Source: a virus
DNA: 35,967 nucleotides
Virus record (IMG/VR): IMGVR_UViG_3300043436_001157
Span: 1-35,967 of that record
Strand: one strand, 5' to 3'
Positions 1-35,967 of this stretch are shown here, piece by piece. Under the pieces are notes generated by a model that saw only the letters and a list, made by a program, of their open reading frames with translations, was not told the origin of the DNA and searched no databases. Numbering within the stretch: position 1 is the first letter of the stretch; each line of letters opens with the position of its first letter. The translations under genes and the position numbers were made by a program.

Positions 1-1
1 A

Positions 2-511
2 TTTGTTTATGAATCGCTTTACGACACCACCAAGATGATTCCTAAGAAGGGTCACTGCTTCGATTGCTCTGGCAATGTAAGAGGTGCGCACATCTGCCCA
101 TTCGTGGATGCTGTCGGGATTGAGTTAACGGTGAGCGGCGATGATGTGATTTCTTCCAAGTCGAAGAAGTACACGCAGGGCATGTCGTTGGTTTATAATG
201 TGAACTGCGATCGTGAAGCTTGGCTGTGCAGCATTGGTGGATTGATGGCAATGCCACTTGCTTATGCAACGGCGGTGGAGATTTATAACTATGGCTTGAC
301 AATCAGCCCAAACCAACGAGTTAACACAACAATAAGCGTGAACACTGGCATCATGAATGATGCACAGGATGGTATGATCGCAGGGCGAGACATTGCAGCG
401 ACAAGATACAGCGAAGAGCTCACAGCGATGTTGCAGAACATGCGACTGCCAAGCGACAATACGTGCTTTGATTGCCGCAGAAATATGAAGTACGTCACAG
501 CTCTTCCATAA
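2..511 (+). CDS. Head-tail adaptor-like structural protein, 5'-truncated
   Basis: This is the C-terminal half of a protein whose full version is at 34032-35078. The frame is open from base 2 and begins FVYESLYDTTKMIPKKGHC, so the gene is cut by the window edge and the methionine at 35 is internal. It contains several Cys pairs (CFDCSGN, CFDCRRN). The function is not recognised. Because the full copy directly follows the major capsid gene and precedes a tail-completion-like gene, a role in head completion or head-tail joining is inferred. Compared with the other copy it lacks four residues near the QRVNTT segment. Its TAA overlaps the next ATG (TAATG). Confidence 0.8.
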   Translation, partial: FVYESLYDTTKMIPKKGHCFDCSGNVRGAHICPFVDAVGIELTVSGDDVISSKSKKYTQGMSLVYNVNCDREAWLCSIGGLMAMPLAYATAVEIYNYGLTISPNQRVNTTISVNTGIMNDAQDGMIAGRDIAATRYSEELTAMLQNMRLPSDNTCFDCRRNMKYVTALP

Positions 512-972
512 TGGCTACACCCAAGGAGATCAGCGGAAGGATTGATGGGCTATTTGCAGAATGGAGCGGAGGGTTCACTCCACTATCTTTTGCTGTTCTC
601 GATATGCGCCGCGAGATGTTTATAAGAATCTTTGGAACTGGCACAAGCGGAGGAACTAACACAGCAGGGCAGAAGCTACCTACTAAGCCATACACTCCTG
701 CATACGCGAAGATAAAAGCTGCAAACGGCAGACCACCATTGGAGCTCACAGGCTTTCTTAAGCGATCATTTGCAACAGACCAAAGCTCAGTATTTGCTCA
801 AGGATTTGGAGTTGTAATCTATATTCAAGCAGATGAGTCTGGCAAGGTAGAAGGATTGCAAAAACTTTATGGACCAATATTTCAACCAACAGACGAGGAG
901 CAAGCAAGGATGTTGCAGCTACATGCAGAACTATTAGTTGAGCAAATCTCAAATCAGATAAGCAAACCATGA
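511..972 (+). CDS. Tail-completion / head-tail joining-like protein
   Basis: A 153-residue protein. The ATG at 511 is chosen because it forms a TAATG junction with the preceding gene and opens with MATPKEISGRID, shared with the second copy at 35078. The central pattern, PTKPYTPAYAKIKAANG followed by PPLELTGFLKRSF, resembles the 'plant a tyrosine/lysine-rich linker, then L-T/D-G-x-L-x-x-S' layout of phage virion morphogenesis (tail completion) proteins. This is a family-level guess, supported by position between head and tail genes. The C-terminus ends at an ATGA overlap with the tail fibre gene. The sequence differs markedly from its allele at the right end. Confidence 0.55.
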   Translation: MATPKEISGRIDGLFAEWSGGFTPLSFAVLDMRREMFIRIFGTGTSGGTNTAGQKLPTKPYTPAYAKIKAANGRPPLELTGFLKRSFATDQSSVFAQGFGVVIYIQADESGKVEGLQKLYGPIFQPTDEEQARMLQLHAELLVEQISNQISKP

Positions 973-3761
973 ACTTACTAAGGACCATAATTGAGCGTTT
1001 AAATCAACGCATTGAAGTTGCGAATATCTTCGACAAGCAGTTTGGCTTATGCGAGCTTAACGCTAACGGCAACGATAAAGCTTGGGTCCATTACATTGGC
1101 AATGGGCAAGCGGAGGTTGTAACCAACTTCGATGCTAAGCAAGGCACATTGTTCTGGGCAAAGCGTGGCAAGGTAACAGTTGCCAAGACCGATGCATACA
1201 AGATGAGCGGCTGCAAGCAGTTGTATGTTACAAGCTTTCCGCTGACAGCTTATGCAGTGGTCCGCAAGAGCCATCTGCCATGCGATGGGGATGATGCTCA
1301 GGACTGGCTTGCTTCAAGAATCTACAAGATTACAAGTGGCACTGATCCACTCTTCAAGCAGAGCATCGGAGTGATTAACTACGAGGTAATTCCGAGCGGT
1401 TACATCAACGAGATTAAGACCTTAACAGCGAACTATGAATGGGCATGTGTCACTGTCGACTTCGACATCCAAGTGATCACAAGCACTGAAGATGGCTGCT
1501 ACGATATTTGCGCAACAGGAGACATTCCACTCCCCGATCTTCCTGCTTGCGTTCCTTGCTTGACGGAGGTTGCTGTTGATGGGGTGACCATTACCGGCAA
1601 CGGAACAGAAGCCGATCCATTGGTGGCAGTTGGAGGCGGTGGAGGCACTCCGCTGATCACCAAAGAAGAAGGCACAAACGTAAGCACTAACACAACTACC
1701 TTAAACTTTACCGGCGCAGGAGTGACGGCTTCGCTGACATCGCCTGGAGTGGTTGAGGTTAATGTGCCAGGCGGAGGCGGAGCAGTGGGAACATTGCAAG
1801 AGGTGACTGATCTCGGCAACAGCACAACCAATAACATTGACTTCATTGCAAATGCAGGGCTTTCATTTGACAACGGCGCATTCTTCCGAAAAGGTACTAC
1901 CGATGCAGGCAATGGCGGCGCAAAGGGCACAGCGCAAATATGCTCCATAAGTTATGAGCTAAAGTGGGAAGCAGGGCGATTATACTACATGCAGCAAGAC
2001 GGCTTCACCATTCGCGATGTGACGCACAACTTTACCTTTGTGCCTCAAGTAACTGATGACAGCACTAAGGGCTTTGTGGTCGGTTCACGTTGGAGCTTGG
2101 ATGATGGCACTGTATACCTATGCTCTGATGCAACAATCGGCGCAGCTGTTTGGGCAGTTGTGACCGTTGGAGGAGTTACATCGGTGACAGGCACAGCACC
2201 AATCGCATCAAGCGGAGGAGCAACTCCAGACATTAGCATCAGCCAAGCTGATGGTAGCACTGACGGATATCTAAGCAGCACAGATTGGAACACGTTCGAT
2301 GGCAAGTTCAATGTGCCAACAGGATTGAGCACCGACTACCTTGATGGCACTGGAACACCGACTGCATTCCCTGCAATTCCAAGCGGCACTGTTACATCGG
2401 TTGACCTTACGATGCCTCCTGCATTCTCTGTCACTGGCAATCCAGTAACATCGAGCGGAACATTAGCGGTTGCAGCGGCAGGGCTAAGCAGCCAATACAT
2501 AAGAGGCGATGGGCAACTTGCAAACTTCCCGACTTCAAGCGGAGGAGGATCAAGTGTAAGCTACTACCTCAACGGATCAGTTGCTCAAGGTACACTTGGA
2601 GGTGTCGCATTTAAGCAGATGAGCGGCACTCCAGTCATTGGAACAGGAACAGACTTCACTATCAATGCTGATGGTTATATTCAATCATTCATCACTGATG
2701 CGAGTGTACCTAATCTGTTGGCAATTCCAGCAGGGAATTGGAACTTTGAGATGTACTTTAGTGCAAATAGCAGCGGAGGTACTCCAAGATTCTACATTGA
2801 GCTCTACAAGCTTAGCGCAGGAACATTGACATTGCTTGCATCAAACTCTGCAACTCCTGAGTTCATCACCAATGGCACTCAGATTGACCTATACACAACG
2901 GCGGTTGCAGTACCAAGCACAGTACTTCTTGCAGCTGATAGGCTTGCAATAAGAGTCTACGTGATCCATAGCAGCAAGACAATCACACTGCACACAGAAG
3001 ACAATCACCTTTGTCAAGTTATTACGACTTTCTCCACTGGCATAAATGCTCTAAACGGCTTAACGGCTCAAGTGCAAAACTTAGCAGTTGGAACATCTGG
3101 AACTGACTTCGCAATATCATCTGCAACAAATACGCACACGTTTAACCTGCCAACGGCGAGCGCATCCAACAGAGGTGCATTGAGTAGTGCTGACTTCACA
3201 ACCTTTGCAGCCAAGCAAGATGCACTGGTTAGCGGCACAAACATCAAGACAATCAACTCGACTTCATTGCTTGGAAGTGGTAATATTTCCATCGCTGCGA
3301 TGGGAGTCTACAAGATATTAACTGATGGAGCTGCATCGAGTGGAACAGCAAACACGTTCAGTCAGTCAGTACTTGTTCCAGGTAATTCAGTTGTGCTTGG
3401 CAATGTTGTTGAGTTTAAAATGAGAGCCCGAAAGACTGGCGCAGCCGGATTGTACACCATTCGATTGTATGCCAACACAACCAACAACTTAAGCGGAAGT
3501 CCTATCTTGTTGGCAACCTTCGTTGCGACATCAGCCAACGCAATTGGGATGCAAATGATAAGAACGGCAGCAATTAAAAATGCGACTACCAATACTGAGA
3601 TGGCACTATCAACTGCAACCAATGCCGCTGATTATGGGAACACTTCCTTCGTATCAAACTCGGTTGATTGGACAACAGATAAGTACATTATCGGAGCAGT
3701 TCAAAATGTAAGCGCAGGCGATTCTTCTTTAATTTCTTATATCTCAATGACAATAGTATGA
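969..3761 (+). CDS. Tail fibre / receptor-binding structural protein
   Basis: A 930-residue modular protein. Residues 1 to about 190 form a conserved N-terminal domain that is duplicated at the right end of the window and probably anchors it to the virion. Gly-rich linkers follow (GGGGGT near residue 222, GGGG near 267). Then come low-complexity fibre modules: GTAPIASSGG near 405, DGYLSSTDWNTFDGKF near 433, and LSSADFTTFAAKQDALVSG followed by NIKTINSTSLLGSGNISI near 738-775. The last two motifs recur in many phage tail fibres. The C-terminal 150 residues look like a globular tip. It starts at an ATGA overlap with the preceding gene and ends overlapping the next ATG. Receptor specificity cannot be read from sequence. 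Confidence 0.8.
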   Translation: MNLLRTIIERLNQRIEVANIFDKQFGLCELNANGNDKAWVHYIGNGQAEVVTNFDAKQGTLFWAKRGKVTVAKTDAYKMSGCKQLYVTSFPLTAYAVVRKSHLPCDGDDAQDWLASRIYKITSGTDPLFKQSIGVINYEVIPSGYINEIKTLTANYEWACVTVDFDIQVITSTEDGCYDICATGDIPLPDLPACVPCLTEVAVDGVTITGNGTEADPLVAVGGGGGTPLITKEEGTNVSTNTTTLNFTGAGVTASLTSPGVVEVNVPGGGGAVGTLQEVTDLGNSTTNNIDFIANAGLSFDNGAFFRKGTTDAGNGGAKGTAQICSISYELKWEAGRLYYMQQDGFTIRDVTHNFTFVPQVTDDSTKGFVVGSRWSLDDGTVYLCSDATIGAAVWAVVTVGGVTSVTGTAPIASSGGATPDISISQADGSTDGYLSSTDWNTFDGKFNVPTGLSTDYLDGTGTPTAFPAIPSGTVTSVDLTMPPAFSVTGNPVTSSGTLAVAAAGLSSQYIRGDGQLANFPTSSGGGSSVSYYLNGSVAQGTLGGVAFKQMSGTPVIGTGTDFTINADGYIQSFITDASVPNLLAIPAGNWNFEMYFSANSSGGTPRFYIELYKLSAGTLTLLASNSATPEFITNGTQIDLYTTAVAVPSTVLLAADRLAIRVYVIHSSKTITLHTEDNHLCQVITTFSTGINALNGLTAQVQNLAVGTSGTDFAISSATNTHTFNLPTASASNRGALSSADFTTFAAKQDALVSGTNIKTINSTSLLGSGNISIAAMGVYKILTDGAASSGTANTFSQSVLVPGNSVVLGNVVEFKMRARKTGAAGLYTIRLYANTTNNLSGSPILLATFVATSANAIGMQMIRTAAIKNATTNTEMALSTATNAADYGNTSFVSNSVDWTTDKYIIGAVQNVSAGDSSLISYISMTIV

Positions 3762-3976
3762 TAGACATAACTCTCGAAGGTGGCTACGTTACCTTTACAA
3801 CATCGGTGATTGGTGCGATTGCATCCAATGTTGAATCTGTCGAAGTGGTTGATGACAACTGCTTGCACTTGGGCACGAATGTCGGAGTGTTCCTAATCAA
3901 TGTGAATCAGTTCACAATTAACGGCATAAAATTCTCGACCTCAGCTGAGGCGGTTAACTACATCATAAACAACTAA
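3758..3976 (+). CDS. Small hypothetical protein downstream of tail fibre
   Basis: A 72-residue protein starting at an ATGA overlap with the tail fibre stop. It is beta-rich and slightly acidic, with no Cys-pair motif, membrane segment or recognisable domain. Its position between the fibre and another tail-associated protein suggests a small virion or fibre-accessory role, but nothing in the sequence proves it. Confidence 0.65.
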   Translation: MIDITLEGGYVTFTTSVIGAIASNVESVEVVDDNCLHLGTNVGVFLINVNQFTINGIKFSTSAEAVNYIINN

Positions 3977-3980
3977 ACAA

Positions 3981-4481
3981 ATGGCAGGCGTAAAAATTAC
4001 AGACTTAGGCACATTGACCACAGCAGTTGATGCAGACTTACTATACATTGTAGATGTTAGCGACACATCGCAATCCCCTCAAGGAACATCCAAGCAGATT
4101 GAGGTGGGCAACATGTTTAGCAGTGGCACTTATACACCGACTGCAAGTGCAGAAACGAATGGCATAATTGTAACACCTAATGCTGCAACATTCATCAAAG
4201 TAGGGAGCATAGTAAGTTGCTCAATTCAATTGGAAGTTATTGTAGATGCAGGAGAGACAACTGGCTCTTTTGAATTGTCGCTTCCAGTGGCATCGAACTT
4301 CACAAATTCCAAGCAGCTATTTGGATTGATGCAGTTCTCTGTTACTGGAACACTGTCTGATATTGTTGGACTTTCAATTGAAGCCGAAACAACAAACAAC
4401 ACTTGCTTCGTTGACCTTGTCACAACAACGGCAGCAAATATGCCTTACTGCGTAATACAATTGCAATATGAAGTCATCTAA
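3981..4481 (+). CDS. Tail-associated structural protein
   Basis: A 166-residue protein whose N-terminus reads KITDLGTLTTAVDADLLYIV, then DVSDTSQSPQGTSKQI. This 'ITDL...D.LYIVDVSDTS' opening recurs at the N-terminus of fibre or appendage proteins in phages of this type. The rest (about residues 50-166) is a beta-rich region rich in Thr, Ser and Val. It probably contributes a short appendage or fibre accessory. It starts 4 nt after the preceding stop and overlaps the lysozyme gene by 14 nt, so virion and lysis genes are on one transcript. Confidence 0.6.
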   Translation: MAGVKITDLGTLTTAVDADLLYIVDVSDTSQSPQGTSKQIEVGNMFSSGTYTPTASAETNGIIVTPNAATFIKVGSIVSCSIQLEVIVDAGETTGSFELSLPVASNFTNSKQLFGLMQFSVTGTLSDIVGLSIEAETTNNTCFVDLVTTTAANMPYCVIQLQYEVI

Positions 4482-4923
4482 CAATGGCATCCGACTCATT
4501 CAGGAGTTTGAAGGCTTGCGTTTAACTTCCTACCTATGCAGCGCAGGAGTGCCGACCATTGGATACGGCGCAACATATTACGCAGACGGCAGCAAGGTAA
4601 AGCTCGGGCAGACAATCACCAATGCGCAGGCGGCGCAACTTCTCAAGGATCACCTTAAGGAGTTCGAGGGCAGCGTGATTGGATTGCTTAACACTACTAA
4701 GGTTAATCAGAATCAGTTCGATGCGCTTGTAAGTTTCTGCTTCAACCTGGGTCCAGCTAACCTTGCTAAATCGCAGCTGTTGAGGTTCATCAAAGCAAAT
4801 CCAAACGACCCGAAGATTGCAGCTGAGTTCCTTAAGTGGAACAGGGCAGGCGGCGAGGTTTCAACCGGACTTGTAAGAAGGAGAAAGAAAGAGGCGCAAC
4901 TATATTTCACACCAATCGTTTAA
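4468..4923 (+). CDS. Phage lysozyme, GH24 (endolysin)
   Basis: A 151-residue T4-type muramidase that hydrolyses the MurNAc-GlcNAc bond of peptidoglycan at lysis. The catalytic pattern is E-8-C-5-T: Glu15 in FEGLRL, Cys24 in YLCSAG, Thr30 in VPTIGYG. The position usually held by Asp is Cys, a variant known in this family. Further family signatures are NQNQFDALVSFCFNLG near residues 75-90 and a C-terminal GLVRRRKKEAQLY typical of GH24 enzymes. No signal peptide or SAR helix is visible, so it should depend on a holin. The next gene encodes a holin-like protein. Confidence 0.95.
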   Translation: MKSSNNGIRLIQEFEGLRLTSYLCSAGVPTIGYGATYYADGSKVKLGQTITNAQAAQLLKDHLKEFEGSVIGLLNTTKVNQNQFDALVSFCFNLGPANLAKSQLLRFIKANPNDPKIAAEFLKWNRAGGEVSTGLVRRRKKEAQLYFTPIV

Positions 4924-8757: not shown

Positions 8758-8969
8758 ACGAGATAGAGCAATTACATCGCTACATGGACACCATAATTGA
8801 TCCACGCGAAGCAGACAACGACACGCTACAAGCGAAGGTTAAGGAAGCAATCATCCAAGCATACTCAAACGGATATCATGACGGTCAGCAAGCCATGGCC
8901 GACAGACTTCCGAAGCCATTGCCAACAGGAGCGGAGATAGGAGGCCTCAAGTATTATGAAGCGTTGTAA
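8754..8969 (+). CDS. Small hypothetical protein
   Basis: A 71-residue acidic protein beginning at an ATGA overlap and overlapping the HNH gene by 14 nt. It contains NGYHDGQQAMADRLP, a 'YxxGxxDG/Q'-type motif common in small phage replication-block proteins of unknown function. No enzymatic signature. Confidence 0.6.
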   Translation: MNEIEQLHRYMDTIIDPREADNDTLQAKVKEAIIQAYSNGYHDGQQAMADRLPKPLPTGAEIGGLKYYEAL

Positions 8970-9561
8970 CTGGACCATGGAAGAGACCGAGTTGCTGATT
9001 GAGCACTATCCGCATCGGTCCACAAAAGAGGTCTCCGAAATAATCGGCAAGTCAGTTCCTCAATGTTATGCCAAAGCCTTCGCACTGCAACTGCATAAGA
9101 CTCCAGAATACTTGGCAACCGATTTTAGCGGCAGACTTAAGAAGGGCAATGTTGGAACGCAGTTCCCAAAGGGCAACACACCTTGGAACAAAGGCATGAA
9201 AGGGGTTGCATTCGGTGGCATCGAGACAAGATTTAAGAAGGGCACTGTGCCACCAAACCACCGAGAAGTTGGCTCCGAGCGCATCGATGAAGATGGATAC
9301 ACCTACATCAAGATTGCTGAGCACACACGATGGGTCCTTAAACATCGGCACATCTACGAACAGCACTATGGCAAGCTTGAGCCGCACATGATAGTGACAT
9401 TTCGAGATAAAAATATATCGAATTTCGATATAGAAAACCTCGAAGCAATCACTAAAGTGGAGAACATGCAGCGCAACACCATCACCAAATATCCTAAACC
9501 AATTAGAGACACAATAAAAACACTAAACAAGTTATGGCAAGAAATAAAATTGAAGATCTAA
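8956..9561 (+). CDS. HNH endonuclease with N-terminal DNA-binding helices
   Basis: A 201-residue protein. Residues 5-47 (WTMEETELLIEHYPHRSTKE onward) form a SANT/HTH-like DNA-binding unit. Residues 65-95 have the basic repeats FPKGNTPWNKGMKG and FKKGTVPPNHRE typical of free-standing phage HNH nucleases. The nuclease core has WVLKHRHIYEQHYG (first His) and IVTFRDKNISNFDIENLEAI (Asn helix). The second catalytic position reads MIVTF, without the usual GHxV, so activity is uncertain. Such genes are often mobile. It overlaps genes on both sides. Confidence 0.8.
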   Translation: MKRCNWTMEETELLIEHYPHRSTKEVSEIIGKSVPQCYAKAFALQLHKTPEYLATDFSGRLKKGNVGTQFPKGNTPWNKGMKGVAFGGIETRFKKGTVPPNHREVGSERIDEDGYTYIKIAEHTRWVLKHRHIYEQHYGKLEPHMIVTFRDKNISNFDIENLEAITKVENMQRNTITKYPKPIRDTIKTLNKLWQEIKLKI

Positions 9562-16025: not shown

Positions 16026-16334
16026 ATGGCAGCTAAGGACATTGAGAAGCATAAGTTCAAGAAGGGGCAGACAGGCAACCCGAATGGGAGACCTCGTAAG
16101 CTTCCCGAATTGGGTAAGCTCATGGCTGACATCTTGGGCGATGAGAAGAACGGACTGAGCACAGCTGAACGCATCCTCAAGGCGATTGAAGCCAAGGCAT
16201 TGCGCGGAGACATCAAGGCGGCAGAGATGCTGCTTGATCGTGGCTACGGCAAGCCCAAGCAAACGACCGACACCAACATCACAAGCACTGAGCCGTTGGT
16301 GATTATAAGAACAATTGAATCAGATGGAAAATGA
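16026..16334 (+). CDS. DUF5681-like protein, possible small terminase subunit
   Basis: A 102-residue protein opening with HKFKKGQTGNPNGRPRKLP, the signature of DUF5681 proteins, followed by helices ending in GDIKAAEMLLDRGYGKPKQT. Members are found beside terminase genes, and this gene is separated from the large terminase only by the HNH gene. A DNA-recognition role in packaging is inferred. It has no ATPase motif. It overlaps the HNH gene by 11 nt. Confidence 0.65.
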   Translation: MAAKDIEKHKFKKGQTGNPNGRPRKLPELGKLMADILGDEKNGLSTAERILKAIEAKALRGDIKAAEMLLDRGYGKPKQTTDTNITSTEPLVIIRTIESDGK

Positions 16335-16851
16335 AACATGGATAGCGTTTGCACCTGGATACGAAGTATCTAATATTGGGAACGTACGAAGCATTGACAG
16401 AGTTGTTCAAACAGCTAAGCAGCCATTGAAACTAAAAGGCAAAGTGCTTAAGCCTGCCATTGACAAGAAAGGCTATAAGCGTGTTGCAATTATGCTTGAT
16501 GGCAAACTTACCACACTTAAGGTGCATAGGATAGTTGCTAAGGCATTTATTGACAATGTCAATGATAAGCCTCAAGTGAATCACATTGATGGCATTAAGA
16601 CTAACAATCATGTCAGCAACTTAGAGTGGGTGAACAATTCAGAAAATGTTCAGCACGCATTTGACAATGGACTTATCAAAGCTAAGCGATTGCATGAAAG
16701 TCCAAGATGCAAGCAAACTAAGGAAGGCATTGAAGAAATTGTAAGATTAAAATCTCTTAAAGTAAAAAATAAAATAATTGCAGAAATGTTTAATTGTTCT
16801 ATTACATCGATTAAAAGATTAAATAGAGACTATGCAATTTACACTAACTAA
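16324..16851 (+). CDS. NUMOD4/HNH homing-type endonuclease
   Basis: A 175-residue protein from the ATG at 16324. Residues 4-50 are a NUMOD4 motif (ETWIAFAPGYEVSNIGNVRS). Residues 65-112 are an HNH core: KVHRIVAKAFI with His68, PQVNHIDG with His87, KTNNHVSNLEWVNNSEN. Residues about 145-167 form a helix-turn-helix-like tail (NKIIAEMFNCSITSIKRL), as in homing nucleases that use it to pick their site. The gene lies between the DUF5681-like gene and terL and overlaps both. Its last 100 nt are notably AT-rich. The downstream terL gene carries an insert in its P-loop codons, the sort of conserved site homing nucleases target. Confidence 0.88.
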   Translation: MENETWIAFAPGYEVSNIGNVRSIDRVVQTAKQPLKLKGKVLKPAIDKKGYKRVAIMLDGKLTTLKVHRIVAKAFIDNVNDKPQVNHIDGIKTNNHVSNLEWVNNSENVQHAFDNGLIKAKRLHESPRCKQTKEGIEEIVRLKSLKVKNKIIAEMFNCSITSIKRLNRDYAIYTN

Positions 16852-18150
16852 GACACAGACAATTGCCTTTGATATGGCGACCAGCGGAGACAAGCGAGTC
16901 ATTGTTTTCGGGGGTGCCATACGATGGTCGCCCCTTGCAGAAATGTAAGGGGGAAAGATTATCGTGGAGGAAAAACTTACTGGCTGCTGCTTACCATCAG
17001 CCATCTGGCACTGCACTATGGCGGATCGCGATGGGTGATCATTCGCAAGAGCTTGCCCGACCTTAAGCGCACAACCTTCCCAAGCTTCACCGGACTGCTA
17101 ACCGATGGGCTAAATGCTCACATCAGAAGTTGGAACAGAGACACCAATGTTGTGACCTTCAACAACGGCAGTGAGCTTATCTTCATGGCGGAATCATTCG
17201 ATGAGGATAAGGACCTTAATAGATTCAGAGGGCTCGAGGTGAACGGCGCAGGGCTCGATGAGGTGAACGAGCTGCAAGAGCCGACCTTCTACAAGGTGCA
17301 GGAGCGTATCGGCAGTTGGAACAAGGCGCATGGCAAGCCTCCTATCGTTTGCCTTGCCACTTGCAACCCTGCCAACAACTGGGTGAAGAGCATCATCTAC
17401 GACCGCTATCGAGACAACAGCCTGCCTGAGAAGTGGAGCTACATCCCGAGTAAGATTACCGACAACCCACACATCCCTGCCGAATACCTCGAGAGCTTGA
17501 AGGAGTTGCCTCCGGTCCAGTATCAGCGTTTCGTGGAAGGCGATTGGGACATCTTGGATGACGTTGCTAATCCATTCCTTTACGAGTGGCAAGACGATAG
17601 GCACATCGATGACAGTGTTGCACTTAATCGCAACATCCCGATCTTCATCTCTGTCGATTTCAACATCAACCCATTGTGCGCACTTGTCATCCAACAGCTG
17701 CCGAGGGGTTGCGTGGTGGTGGACGAGATAAAGATTGACAAGGGCAGCGTTGATGCGTTCTGCGATCACATCGAGCGCATGGGCATCCCAATGGGCTTAT
17801 TACGCATCACAGGCGATGCAATGGGCAAAGGTGGCACTGTGCAACAGCGTGATAACTCGAGTGCCTACACGCAGATAAAACGGCGGCTGCATCTATCCGA
17901 TTCGCAGATCATCATCCCTGCCAATCCGACCCATTACAACAGCCGCATCGATTGCAATGCAGCACTCCGCAAGCTTGACATCAGAGCGAACTCGGTCAAG
18001 TGCAAGGGCTTCGTGTTTGATGCGAAGCAAGTGCAGTGCGATGCGAACGGCAGCATCATAAAGAGCAACAGAAGAATCTTATCAGAGCGTGCAGATTTCT
18101 TGGATTGTTTTCGTTACTTTGTAAACGCAATACTTAAGAGATACCTATGA
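16832..18150 (+). CDS. terL: Terminase large subunit, interrupted by a 41-nt insert in the Walker A codons
   Basis: The packaging ATPase-nuclease is encoded in two pieces: 16832-16924 (31 codons, ending VIVFGGAIR) and 16966-18150 (394 codons, starting GGKTYWLLL). Together they give 425 residues with a perfect Walker A, GGAIRGGKT. Later motifs are Walker B GAGLDEVNE, the coupling motif CLATCNPANNW, and nuclease acidic residues in ISVDFNINPL, ITGDAMGKGG and RADFLDCFRYF. Read plainly, the first piece hits TAA at 16946 after 38 codons. The downstream frame is reached only by skipping 41 nt. A start at the ATG at 16924 gives a 408-residue protein lacking the first half of the P-loop. The gene overlaps the HNH gene by 20 nt. 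Identity as terL is sure. How it is expressed is not. Confidence 0.9.
16921..16965 (+). other. Hairpin insert: candidate translational bypass element
   Basis: The insert lies between Arg codon CGA (16922-16924) and Arg codon CGT (16963-16965). The whole segment folds: ACGATGGTC (16921-16929) pairs with GATTATCGT (16957-16965), including two G-U pairs; then CCCCTT (16931-16936) pairs with AAGGGG (16947-16952) around a 10-nt loop. The zero-frame stop TAA (16946-16948) lies at the loop-stem edge. A purine run AAGGGGGAAAG stands about 8 nt before the CGT. CGA and CGT are read by the same inosine-bearing tRNA-Arg in bacteria, so a peptidyl-tRNA could leave one and land on the other. G-runs make it look unlike the flanking DNA. 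Confidence 0.6.
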
Positions 18151-34031: not shown

Positions 34032-35078
34032 ATGTGCTACGAATCTCTACTCGGCTTACAAGGTTGCGACAGACCAGAGCCAACGACTGGACTCTATATC
34101 GATGACTTAGGCATCAATCAGACATTACTCGGTCAGCTAATCACAGACCAATACAACAGCGGAGTTGAATTGTTTGAAGCAAAGCGAGCATTCGCATGGC
34201 GCAAGATGTCAACCGATATCTTAAGCAGACTAACACCAATGATGAAAGCGGACACCGTTGTGGAGTCAAAGCGCATCGGTCAAGTGGTAAGCAATGCTGC
34301 GAACATCGATGTTGCACTTGGTGCAAATAAGTATGCAGGCATCAGAGTCACAATTGATCCGAATACTGAAAGCTTCTTAAACTTTTATCTGTCTAATTTC
34401 AAGATTGACATCTACACGATGGCAACTCCTGTCGAGATTTTTGTTTACGACATGAGCACCTTGAAGCTGATTGATTCATTCTTCTACCAATCGGAAGCAG
34501 TTGAGCAGTTTATCGGCAAGACCTTCAAGGCAAATCGCAGAAAGTTAGATCTGGCATTTGTTTATGAATCGCTTTACGACACCACCAAGATGATTCCTAA
34601 GAAGGGTCACTGCTTCGATTGCTCAGGCAATGTAAGAGGTGCTCACATCTGCCCATTCGTGGATGCTGTCGGGATTGAGTTAACGGTGAGCGGAGATGAT
34701 GTGATTAGTTCCAAGTCGAAGAAGTACACGCAAGGCATGTCCTTAGTTTATAATGTGAACTGCGATCGTGAAGCTTGGCTGTGCTCGATTGGTGGATTGA
34801 TGGCGATGCCGCTTGCTTATGCAACGGCTGTCGAGATTTATAACTACGGCTTGAGCGTGTCACCAAATCAGCGTGTCAACACAACTGTTAGCATCAACAT
34901 AGGAAGCAAGCCATTTGCAACTGCCGATGCCAACGATGGAATGATTGCAGGGCGAGACATTGCAGCGACAAGATACAGCGAAGAGCTCACAGCGATGTTG
35001 CAGAACATGCGACTACCAAGCGACAATACGTGCTTTGATTGCCGCAGAAATATGAAGTATGTAACTGCTCTCCCATAA
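34032..35078 (+). CDS. Head-tail adaptor-like structural protein, complete copy
   Basis: A 348-residue protein directly after the major capsid gene. The N-terminal region (LLGQLITDQYNSGVELFEAK onward) is helical and the C-terminal half has paired Cys (CFDCSGN, CFDCRRN), as in the truncated left copy. Compared with that copy it carries SKPFATADA-type extra residues near 290, a net gain of four. The function is not recognised; position suggests a head completion or connector protein. TAATG joins it to the next gene. Confidence 0.75.
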   Translation: MCYESLLGLQGCDRPEPTTGLYIDDLGINQTLLGQLITDQYNSGVELFEAKRAFAWRKMSTDILSRLTPMMKADTVVESKRIGQVVSNAANIDVALGANKYAGIRVTIDPNTESFLNFYLSNFKIDIYTMATPVEIFVYDMSTLKLIDSFFYQSEAVEQFIGKTFKANRRKLDLAFVYESLYDTTKMIPKKGHCFDCSGNVRGAHICPFVDAVGIELTVSGDDVISSKSKKYTQGMSLVYNVNCDREAWLCSIGGLMAMPLAYATAVEIYNYGLSVSPNQRVNTTVSINIGSKPFATADANDGMIAGRDIAATRYSEELTAMLQNMRLPSDNTCFDCRRNMKYVTALP

Positions 35079-35539
35079 TGGCTACACCCAAGGAGATCAG
35101 CGGAAGGATTGATGCTTTATTCTCTGAGTGGAGTGGAGGCTTTACTCCATTGAGATTTGCTGTGCAGGATATGCGGAGAGAGATGTACATTCGCATCTTT
35201 GGAATTGATACTGGCAGAGGCCAAAACCAAGCAGGCAATTTCCTTCCAACTAAACCTTATACTAAAGCATACGCAAAGATAAAAGCTGCAAACGGCAAAC
35301 CACCATTAGAGCTCACAGGATTCTTAAAGCGATCATTTGCAACAGATCAAACCACAGTTATAACTGAAGGCTTTGATACTGCAATCTACACTGTTGCAGA
35401 TGAAGCAGGCAAGGTGGCAGGGCTTGAGAAACTTTACGGCACAATATTCAAACCAACAGCGGAGGAGCAAGCAAGGATGTTGCAGCTACATGCTGACTTA
35501 CTTGTTGAGCAAATCTCAAATCAGATAAGCAAACCATGA
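35078..35539 (+). CDS. Tail-completion-like protein, second allele
   Basis: 153 residues, the same length as the copy at 511-972. Shared blocks are MATPKEISGRID, KAYAKIKAANGKPPLELTGF and the C-terminal EEQARMLQLHADLLVEQISN. Two variable stretches differ: residues about 12-62, and about 84-110 (TTVITEGFDTAIYTVADEAG here). The same TAATG start and ATGA end are used. Function as for the first copy. Confidence 0.55.
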   Translation: MATPKEISGRIDALFSEWSGGFTPLRFAVQDMRREMYIRIFGIDTGRGQNQAGNFLPTKPYTKAYAKIKAANGKPPLELTGFLKRSFATDQTTVITEGFDTAIYTVADEAGKVAGLEKLYGTIFKPTAEEQARMLQLHADLLVEQISNQISKP

Positions 35540-35967
35540 ACTTATTAAGGACCATCATCGAGCGGCTCAATCAACGTGTTGAGGTAGCAAATATCTTCGA
35601 CAAGCAGTTTGGACTTTGCGAGCTTAACGCTAACGGCAACGAAAAGGCTTGGGTGCATTACATCGGCAATGGGCAAGCGGAGGTTGTTACCAACTTCGAT
35701 GCGAAGCAAGGCACATTGTTCTGGGCAAAGCGTGGCAAGGTAACAGTTGCCAAGACCGATGCATACAAGATGAGCGGTTGCAAGCAGTTGTATGTTACAA
35801 GCTTTCCGCTAACTGCTTATGCTGTTGTGCGCAAGAGCCATCTGCCATGCGATGGAGATGATGCTCAGGACTGGCTTGCTTCAAGAATCTACAAGATTAC
35901 AAGTGGCACTGATCCACTCTTCAAGCAGAGCATCGGAGTGATTAACTACGAGGTAATTCCGAGCGGT
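35536..35967 (+). CDS. Tail fibre N-terminal domain, 3'-truncated
   Basis: The first 144 codons of a second copy of the tail fibre gene (compare 969-3761), cut by the window end. The start is an ATGA overlap. The protein is nearly identical to the other copy over this stretch, as expected for the virion-attachment domain. The host-specific part lies outside the window. Confidence 0.85.
   Translation, partial: MNLLRTIIERLNQRVEVANIFDKQFGLCELNANGNEKAWVHYIGNGQAEVVTNFDAKQGTLFWAKRGKVTVAKTDAYKMSGCKQLYVTSFPLTAYAVVRKSHLPCDGDDAQDWLASRIYKITSGTDPLFKQSIGVINYEVIPSG

Follow-up and report, generated by a model that had tools for sequence, protein, structure and literature searches.

A 41-nt insert that interrupts the large terminase gene (terL) of a metagenomic virus is very likely a mobile programmed translational bypass element, with the bypass itself inferred in the absence of RNA or protein data. 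The interrupted gene lies in the window, which here denotes the whole stretch of DNA analysed (IMG/VR record IMGVR_UViG_3300043436_001157, 35,967 nt). Bypass is the best-fitting explanation because the insert recurs in 49 copies whose hairpin covaries, whose gaps take three lengths and many of which have a closed landing frame, because the divided gene is under purifying selection, and because the insert is linked to a homing endonuclease and shares its architecture with six further sites that use other synonymous codon pairs. The preliminary description, which was made from the sequence alone, had proposed a bypass between matched Arg codons, and this proposal is supported as the best fit to the comparative evidence.

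The anatomy of the interrupted gene was confirmed by re-reading the sequence (Table 1). The 5′ ORF opens at ATG 16832-16834 and encodes MQFTLTKTQTIAFDMATSGDKRVIVFGGAIR (31 aa), and the frame from 16966 encodes GGKTYW and the remainder of the protein (394 aa). Together, these amount to 425 residues, which is the length of the uninterrupted terL of a relative (L003) that carries Terminase_6N and Terminase_3. When the window record was queried with the L003 protein, two adjoining pieces were returned (16832-16927 and 16951-18147) and no second terL was found in the record; a second intact copy had been named in advance as a result that would refute bypass. The reading frame from 16832, the TAA at 16946-16948, the resumption at GGA 16966 and the total of 425 residues had all been given in the preliminary description and held to the base, as did the purine run noted ahead of CGT, which is conserved among copies. 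By analogy with T4, this run could possibly serve as a Shine-Dalgarno-like landing aid (PMC5009743). The region folds at -29.6 kcal/mol (z = -2.9), with no shuffle equally good.

Table 1. Features of the interrupted terL region in the window and the basis on which each was assigned.
Feature	Position	Strand	Basis
Small gene (DUF5681) at the terminase-small-subunit position, upstream neighbour	16026..16334	+	Pfam PF18932, E 1e-15
Free-standing homing endonuclease gene, NUMOD4 + HNH_3	16315..16851	+	Pfam NUMOD4 4e-10, HNH_3 1.3e-8
terL 5′ part, 31 codons, MQFTLTK...VFGGAIR	16832..16924	+	Aligns with residues 1-32 of L003 terL
Take-off codon CGA (Arg)	16922..16924	+	ATACGA in 49/49 copies
Proposed bypassed element, 41 nt, with the landing codon as its end	16925..16965	+	Missing from 70 uninterrupted relatives; 39/40/41 nt in 49 copies
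Conserved 9-bp hairpin, 16931-16939 with 16944-16952; GNRA tetraloop GAAA 16940-16943	16931..16952	+	Covariation, RNAalifold
Frame-0 stop TAA within the gap	16946..16948	+	Sequence
Purine-rich GGGGGAAAGA ahead of the landing codon	16949..16958	+	Conserved among copies
Landing codon CGT (Arg)	16963..16965	+	CGA, CGC or CGT in every copy
terL 3′ part, 394 codons + stop, Walker A continues GGKTYW	16966..18150	+	Terminase_6N / Terminase_3; dN/dS 0.040 among insert-bearing copies

The DUF5681 gene upstream is likely terS, as inferred from its position. The homing endonuclease (HNH) gene that follows encodes 178 aa from TTG 16315, although ATG 16324 is probably the better start, and its 3′ end overlaps the start of terL by 20 nt. 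Elsewhere in the window, a second HNH_3 gene is present at 8956-9561, while no tRNA genes and, by a scan for the same geometry, no other bypass-like element were found; the portal protein gave no match. The two ends of the window (1-1400 and 34555-35967) form a mutual repeat of 87% identity with indels, which may reflect either the assembly of a circular genome out of strain variants or a genuine tandem copy.

With the terL sequence 3′ of the insert as query, 80 IMG/VR loci of 81-99% identity were recovered. Comparison with related genes lacking the insert had been suggested as a check, and 70 of these loci indeed carry an uninterrupted GG-x-IRGGKT, with the remaining 10 bearing an insert at exactly the same codon. 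IMG/VR was also scanned at the DNA level for (a) ATACGA plus the hairpin, (b) the hairpin plus the landing region, with the take-off codon left free, and (c) both flanks around a free gap of 26-56 nt, with any Arg-type codons and the hairpin unconstrained. The three scans agree on 48 contigs beyond the window, giving 49 copies in all and 26 distinct inserts; scan (c) contributes a divergent copy (L138) along with one false positive (L139). The gap measures 39 nt in 22 copies, 40 nt in one (L091) and 41 nt in 26. The codon pair ahead of it is ATA-CGA in all 49, including those matched by scan (b), and the landing codon is always CGA, CGC or CGT, never CGG, AGA or AGG. Among the intact alleles, the same Ile is encoded by ATT (35), ATA (32) or ATC (3), and the Arg by CGA (28), CGT (28), CGC (7), AGA (4) or AGG (3). 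Given this variation in intact alleles, the lack of AGR codons at the landing site counts only as weak evidence, but the invariance of ATACGA is strong evidence.

Across gaps of 39, 40 and 41 nt only the spacing from CGA to CGH is kept. The three lengths place landing in each of the three frames relative to take-off, and the frame in which the insert would be read therefore does not matter. The frame-0 stop falls at +3, +6 or +24 after the take-off codon among the relatives. The statement that the stop does not directly follow take-off, which had been made for the window, is true there (+24), yet TAA or TAG immediately follows CGA in 18 copies, with +6 in others, and TGA immediately follows ATT at another site. 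In about 20 of the 41-nt copies, a TAA in the landing frame stands immediately 5′ of the landing codon, and no ATG, GTG or TTG occurs between this TAA and the P-loop; three additional copies (L101, L103 and L120) likewise lack a start codon ahead of the P-loop.

Despite its interruption, terL is a live gene under strong purifying selection, with dN/dS at 0.040 in the 3′ part and at 0.10 in 25 codons of the 5′ part, as computed from 163 pairs of copies that bear the insert. The 5′ peptides vary between copies except near VVFGGAIR. In two copies, the 3′ part is cut short by an additional early stop (after 239 codons in L110 and 200 in L135), possibly owing to sequencing error or to decay of the gene. 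Every locus of the Arg element is a metagenome contig, and the element is absent from isolates in the collections searched. Relatives of this terL in named phages all fall below 60% identity, and none was seen with the element. The landing pattern was matched three times in GTDB genomes, all unrelated and judged chance, and no prophage copy was found there. The hosts appear to be largely Bacteroidota, an inference from named phages of Flavobacterium and Cellulophaga to which two of the loci are distantly related.

The feature that unites the inserts is a hairpin of the form CCCC-N5-GNRA-N5-GGGG, which is present in all 26 distinct Arg inserts (N6 in L138), starting 5-6 nt past the take-off codon and ending 7-10 nt short of the landing codon. 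Over 25 distinct inserts, 97.8% of cells in this hairpin are paired, 37 cells show two-sided changes that preserve pairing, and covariation scores 0.497 as compared with 0.213 for shuffled sequences and at most 0.070 for slid partners. RNAalifold, run independently, recovered the same single hairpin and nothing else. The earlier suggestion that the whole gap folds into one hairpin that brings the two codons together failed in part. The outer stem, 9 bp between 16921-16929 and 16957-16965, is paired in 65% of cells against 68.1% in shuffles over the 25 inserts, with neither conservation nor covariation, and was rejected as incidental, whereas the inner 9-bp GAAA hairpin is conserved. An alternative stem between an upstream G-run and the CCCC of the insert was judged by eye to be good in L119 only, and is not conserved.

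The insert is linked to a homing endonuclease. In 23 insert-bearing loci, an HNH homologue separates terS from terL, and about 22 other copies have the insert without an adjacent HNH gene; none of the uninterrupted loci examined has HNH upstream of terL. Every close HNH homologue in the collection adjoins an insert-bearing terL, except that of L158, a contig which stops short of terL. Purifying selection acts on the HNH gene as well (dN/dS 0.14-0.24). When the presence of the insert is mapped on a tree built from the terL 3′ part, 12 changes are required, at least 10 of which are forced by well supported branches. The insert has thus been repeatedly gained or lost, as a mobile cassette would be, although the uninterrupted set was picked for nearness to the window and the count of gains and losses is not a census. 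Within the window class, mean identity is 0.89 in the 5′ exon, 0.96 in the insert and 0.77 in the opening 90 nt of the 3′ exon, and the transferred block appears to reach only as far as the landing codon. The step is weak or absent in the other classes. Just upstream of terL, L047 and L119, which have the insert and no HNH, carry a duplicated terL start, MAFSLTK*KRHMAFSLTKRQTK, which is likely the scar of a lost endonuclease. Of the properties that define a homing cassette of the T4 mobA/60 type, linkage and spread to insert-free alleles are met, and cleavage is inferred only.

When the hairpin alone was scanned for, with no gene as anchor and with stems built on C4/G4 only, the Arg class was returned along with six further sites of the same geometry: four in terL genes, one in a glycosyltransferase and one in a family-B DNA polymerase, with gene identities backed by Pfam. 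The terL sites comprise L187 (Ile ATT to ATC, 39 nt), L172 from another terL family (Ser TCT to TCA, 38 nt), L229 in a terL near that of Flavobacterium phage 11b (Ala GCT to GCA, 42 nt), and L181, L223 and L225, which are identical over the 1,300 nt compared (Gly GGT to GGA, 41 nt). The glycosyltransferase site is seen in L176 (Ile ATT to ATC, 41 nt) and L199 (Ile ATT to ATT, 40 nt), whose proteins are 63% identical, and the polymerase site in L196 (Ala GCT to GCT, 40 nt). Each gap is bounded by synonymous, in-phase codons, which are thereby shown at seven sites in total, and the residue concerned is encoded once in intact relatives (11b YGGAAGGGKSALG, YGGAAGGGKS; immuto CDDIRMHSG; L167 QGGTSAGKT). 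TAA lies directly 5′ of the landing codon in L176, L199 and L196, and TGA directly follows the take-off ATT in L176. L229 is adjoined by a homing endonuclease gene (HNH, NUMOD4) and L176 by a NUMOD3 gene assigned to a homing endonuclease phrog; a GIY-YIG-looking ORF at the corresponding place in L199 was recognized by eye, without Pfam or PHROGs support. No adjacent homing endonuclease was found at L172, L187 or the L181-type loci.

TAA just ahead of the landing codon thus recurs at unrelated sites, in most 41-nt Arg copies as well as in L176, L199 and L196, and this triplet may act in landing beyond closing the frame. In L196, the polymerase region (1429-4763, minus strand) contains an intein after YGDTDS in addition to the bypass-like element, with only a 33-aa ORF upstream of the element; the gene seems to be split several times.

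The specificity of this geometry was assessed with a uniform test of 80 hairpins, which called for a stem, correctly spaced synonymous codons, open flanks and a broken frame. It was passed by 31 of the 80, 10 of them outside the Arg class; nine of these 10 are the further-site loci, and the remaining one (L179) looks like chance. Shifted geometries passed the same test 6, 6, 1 and 4 times, partly with the same repeats. In a wider scan of 2.16 Mb, the true geometry with synonymous codons was met by 27 distinct sequences, one of which (L179) was judged chance, as against 0 for the shifted geometry. Most other hairpins (e.g. L173, the L174 type, L179, L189 and L230) accompany no interrupted gene, or a continuous ORF, and were judged terminators or chance. 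The split glycosyltransferase of Mel-JY01 was also rejected, as it is split at another place and has no such element.

With regard to mechanism, it is only inferred that bypass occurs, how efficient it is, which tRNA takes part and what the endonuclease targets. The element and the adjacent HNH gene would constitute a homing cassette, in which the endonuclease presumably cuts insert-free terL alleles, the insert marks the invaded allele, and bypass renders the insert harmless. With CGA in the P site, the base of the stem would be situated about 6 nt downstream, and hairpins at about this spacing stall ribosomes and stimulate recoding. In most bacteria, CGA is decoded by inosine at position 34, a weak pair, and the same inosine tRNA decodes CGU and CGC. 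The weak pairing should ease the release of the peptidyl-tRNA, which may then re-pair at the synonymous landing codon. The earlier proposal that one inosine-bearing tRNA-Arg reads both CGA and CGT agrees with this background, the tRNA being inferred. In-phase synonymous codons at seven sites fit such re-pairing of a single peptidyl-tRNA, and excision of RNA would not require them.

Among the rival explanations, the least improbable, albeit an unlikely one, is that the insert is cut from the mRNA as a mini-intron by an unknown ribonuclease and ligase or by a ribozyme. The resulting protein would be identical, the hairpin could be the recognition element, and the DNA data do not exclude it. Against this, no Rfam intron or ribozyme matches the window at gathering scores, and there are no fixed splice-site letters across the seven sites, which have CGA, ATT, TCT, GCT or GGT before the gap and CGN, ATY, TCA, GCW or GGA after it. 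Moreover, the flanks always form an in-phase synonymous codon pair, which is needed by bypass and not by splicing. Group I and II introns are far longer than 38-42 nt; such introns and inteins were rejected for the lack of an Rfam match in the window and for an insert of 41 nt with an in-frame stop.

It is very unlikely that TerL is instead made as two pieces, with the 5′ ORF stopping and the 3′ ORF restarting within the gap. In its favour, an in-frame ATG at 16924 opens a 408-aa ORF in the window, and phages are known to have genes whose two halves are separated by a homing endonuclease (T4 39/60; Aeh1 nrdA, PMC2988022). However, this ATG is confined to the window class, for which reason it was rejected as an internal start; the closed landing frames and missing start codons of the 41-nt copies described above, those of L101, L103 and L120, and the TAA before landing in L176, L199 and L196 all argue against a restart, which would also divide the P-loop itself. 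Programmed -1/+1 frameshifting was likewise discarded. Given three gap lengths and a TAA before the landing codon with no usable start, both frameshifting and internal restart are excluded as general mechanisms. An assembly artefact or terL pseudogene is all but excluded. The family is known only from metagenome contigs, and L110 and L135 have their further stops, but this reading, of which the assembly error had been named beforehand as a possible refutation, is countered by distinct, covarying inserts on 49 contigs drawn from many metagenomes, by the dN/dS of 0.04 and by the lack of any other terL in the window record.

Bypass thus remains the preferred reading, and several points weigh against it. 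In the absence of RNA or protein data, removal of the insert from the mRNA is possible in principle. In the window, the stop lies 7 codons past take-off, and a nonstop slide past TGG would therefore have to compete with decoding. Neither a T4-like nascent-peptide signal nor a 5′ stem-loop has been shown, and the 5′ coding sequences differ between copies. For a single tRNA to serve the Ser, Ala and Gly pairs, U34 wobble or two-out-of-three pairing would be necessary. As for the homing cassette, HNH is absent beside approximately half of the copies.

The best known precedent, T4 gene 60, has been described as apparently unique (PMC3014915), and a later review noted the paucity of bypass cases, listing inserts of yeast mitochondria and, as a likely further case, a short one in the terminase of a Streptomyces phage (PMC5009743). 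Bypass in T4 requires a nascent-peptide signal, an A-site stem-loop and sliding driven by EF-G, and about half of ribosomes finish the hop (PMC11194080). The T4 record (NC_000866.4) shows a 50-nt bypass region from GGA to GGA, with a stop after take-off and a hairpin from take-off with a UUCG loop, as well as a defective mobA between 60.1 and 39; the gene 60/mobA cassette was reportedly treated by Bonocora et al. 2011. Like gene 60, the Arg family has two ORFs of one protein across a defined gap (39-41 nt in 49 copies), matched codons (CGA to CGH in 49/49, and synonymous in-phase pairs at the six further sites) and a stable tetraloop hairpin in the gap, here a covarying 9-bp GNRA hairpin. The two differ in gap length (50 nt in T4, 39-41 nt in the Arg family and 38-42 nt over all sites), in the loop (UUCG versus GNRA in Arg-type elements), in where the stem begins (at the take-off codon versus 5-6 nt after it), in the take-off codon (GGA versus CGA, TCT, GCT, GGT or ATT) and in the 5′ ORF (46 aa versus about 30 aa). 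T4 is also a single case, whereas the new family spans many copies, genes and phages and often keeps the element after loss of the endonuclease. The element was rejected as a sequence homologue of that in gene 60, given that hairpin type, position and codons all differ and no sequence similarity was seen. The family very likely works like T4 gene 60 without sequence kinship, as an instance of programmed bypassing with many members, bypass again being inferred.

The byp elements of Magnusiomyces capitatus mitochondria (81 sites) are similarly numerous short inserts that are skipped between matched or nearly matched triplets, but they are read by yeast mitochondrial ribosomes with relaxed decoding and are reportedly largely context-independent (PMC5009743). 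In contrast, the new family occurs in phages of bacterial hosts, with one conserved hairpin type tied to homing endonucleases. The Streptomyces phage case also concerns a terminase gene for which bypass was proposed, with a much shorter gap tied to a UUA codon and no such hairpin cassette in the review (PMC5009743). In the tape-measure gene of mycobacteriophage Corndog, HNH lies beside an interrupted gene, no RNA splicing was seen and bypass was considered; there, bypass was one of two options, the other being an ACG start, and no matched-codon hairpin element was reported (PMC4351075). The present family was not found in the literature searched, which largely left out subscription journals and preprints.

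A bolder reading, which as a joint claim is likely and rests on inferred bypass, is that of a widespread family of portable bypass elements in phages, apparently largely those of Bacteroidota. Each would use a GNRA hairpin of fixed geometry for a hop of about 40 nt from one codon to a synonymous one, for any of several amino acids, and would need no nascent-peptide signal of the T4 kind. Homing endonucleases would place these elements in essential genes at their most conserved codons (the terminase P-loop, a DNA polymerase motif and a glycosyltransferase), as the translational counterpart of self-splicing introns and inteins. With T4 gene 60 described in reviews as the lone well-established phage bypass, hops over tens of nucleotides could have been either a curiosity or something that bacterial ribosomes can do in general. 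The family offers dozens of natural variants in hairpin, gap length, codons, upstream peptide and gene, from which the minimal requirements could be read. It would also represent a third route, beside introns and inteins, by which homing endonucleases live inside essential genes, and, as regards annotation, terL, polymerase and glycosyltransferase genes that appear broken in this manner are probably intact.

A different kind of interruption was observed in L161 (3672-3800) and in L162, which is alike. Here, a Vequintavirus-type terL immediately follows an HNH gene, and its Walker A motif is broken as FIGG-[TGAGT]-ACGGGKS in comparison to GGAAGSGKS in the Alma relative. The gap is only 5 nt and has no hairpin, and may represent a short hop or a frameshift.
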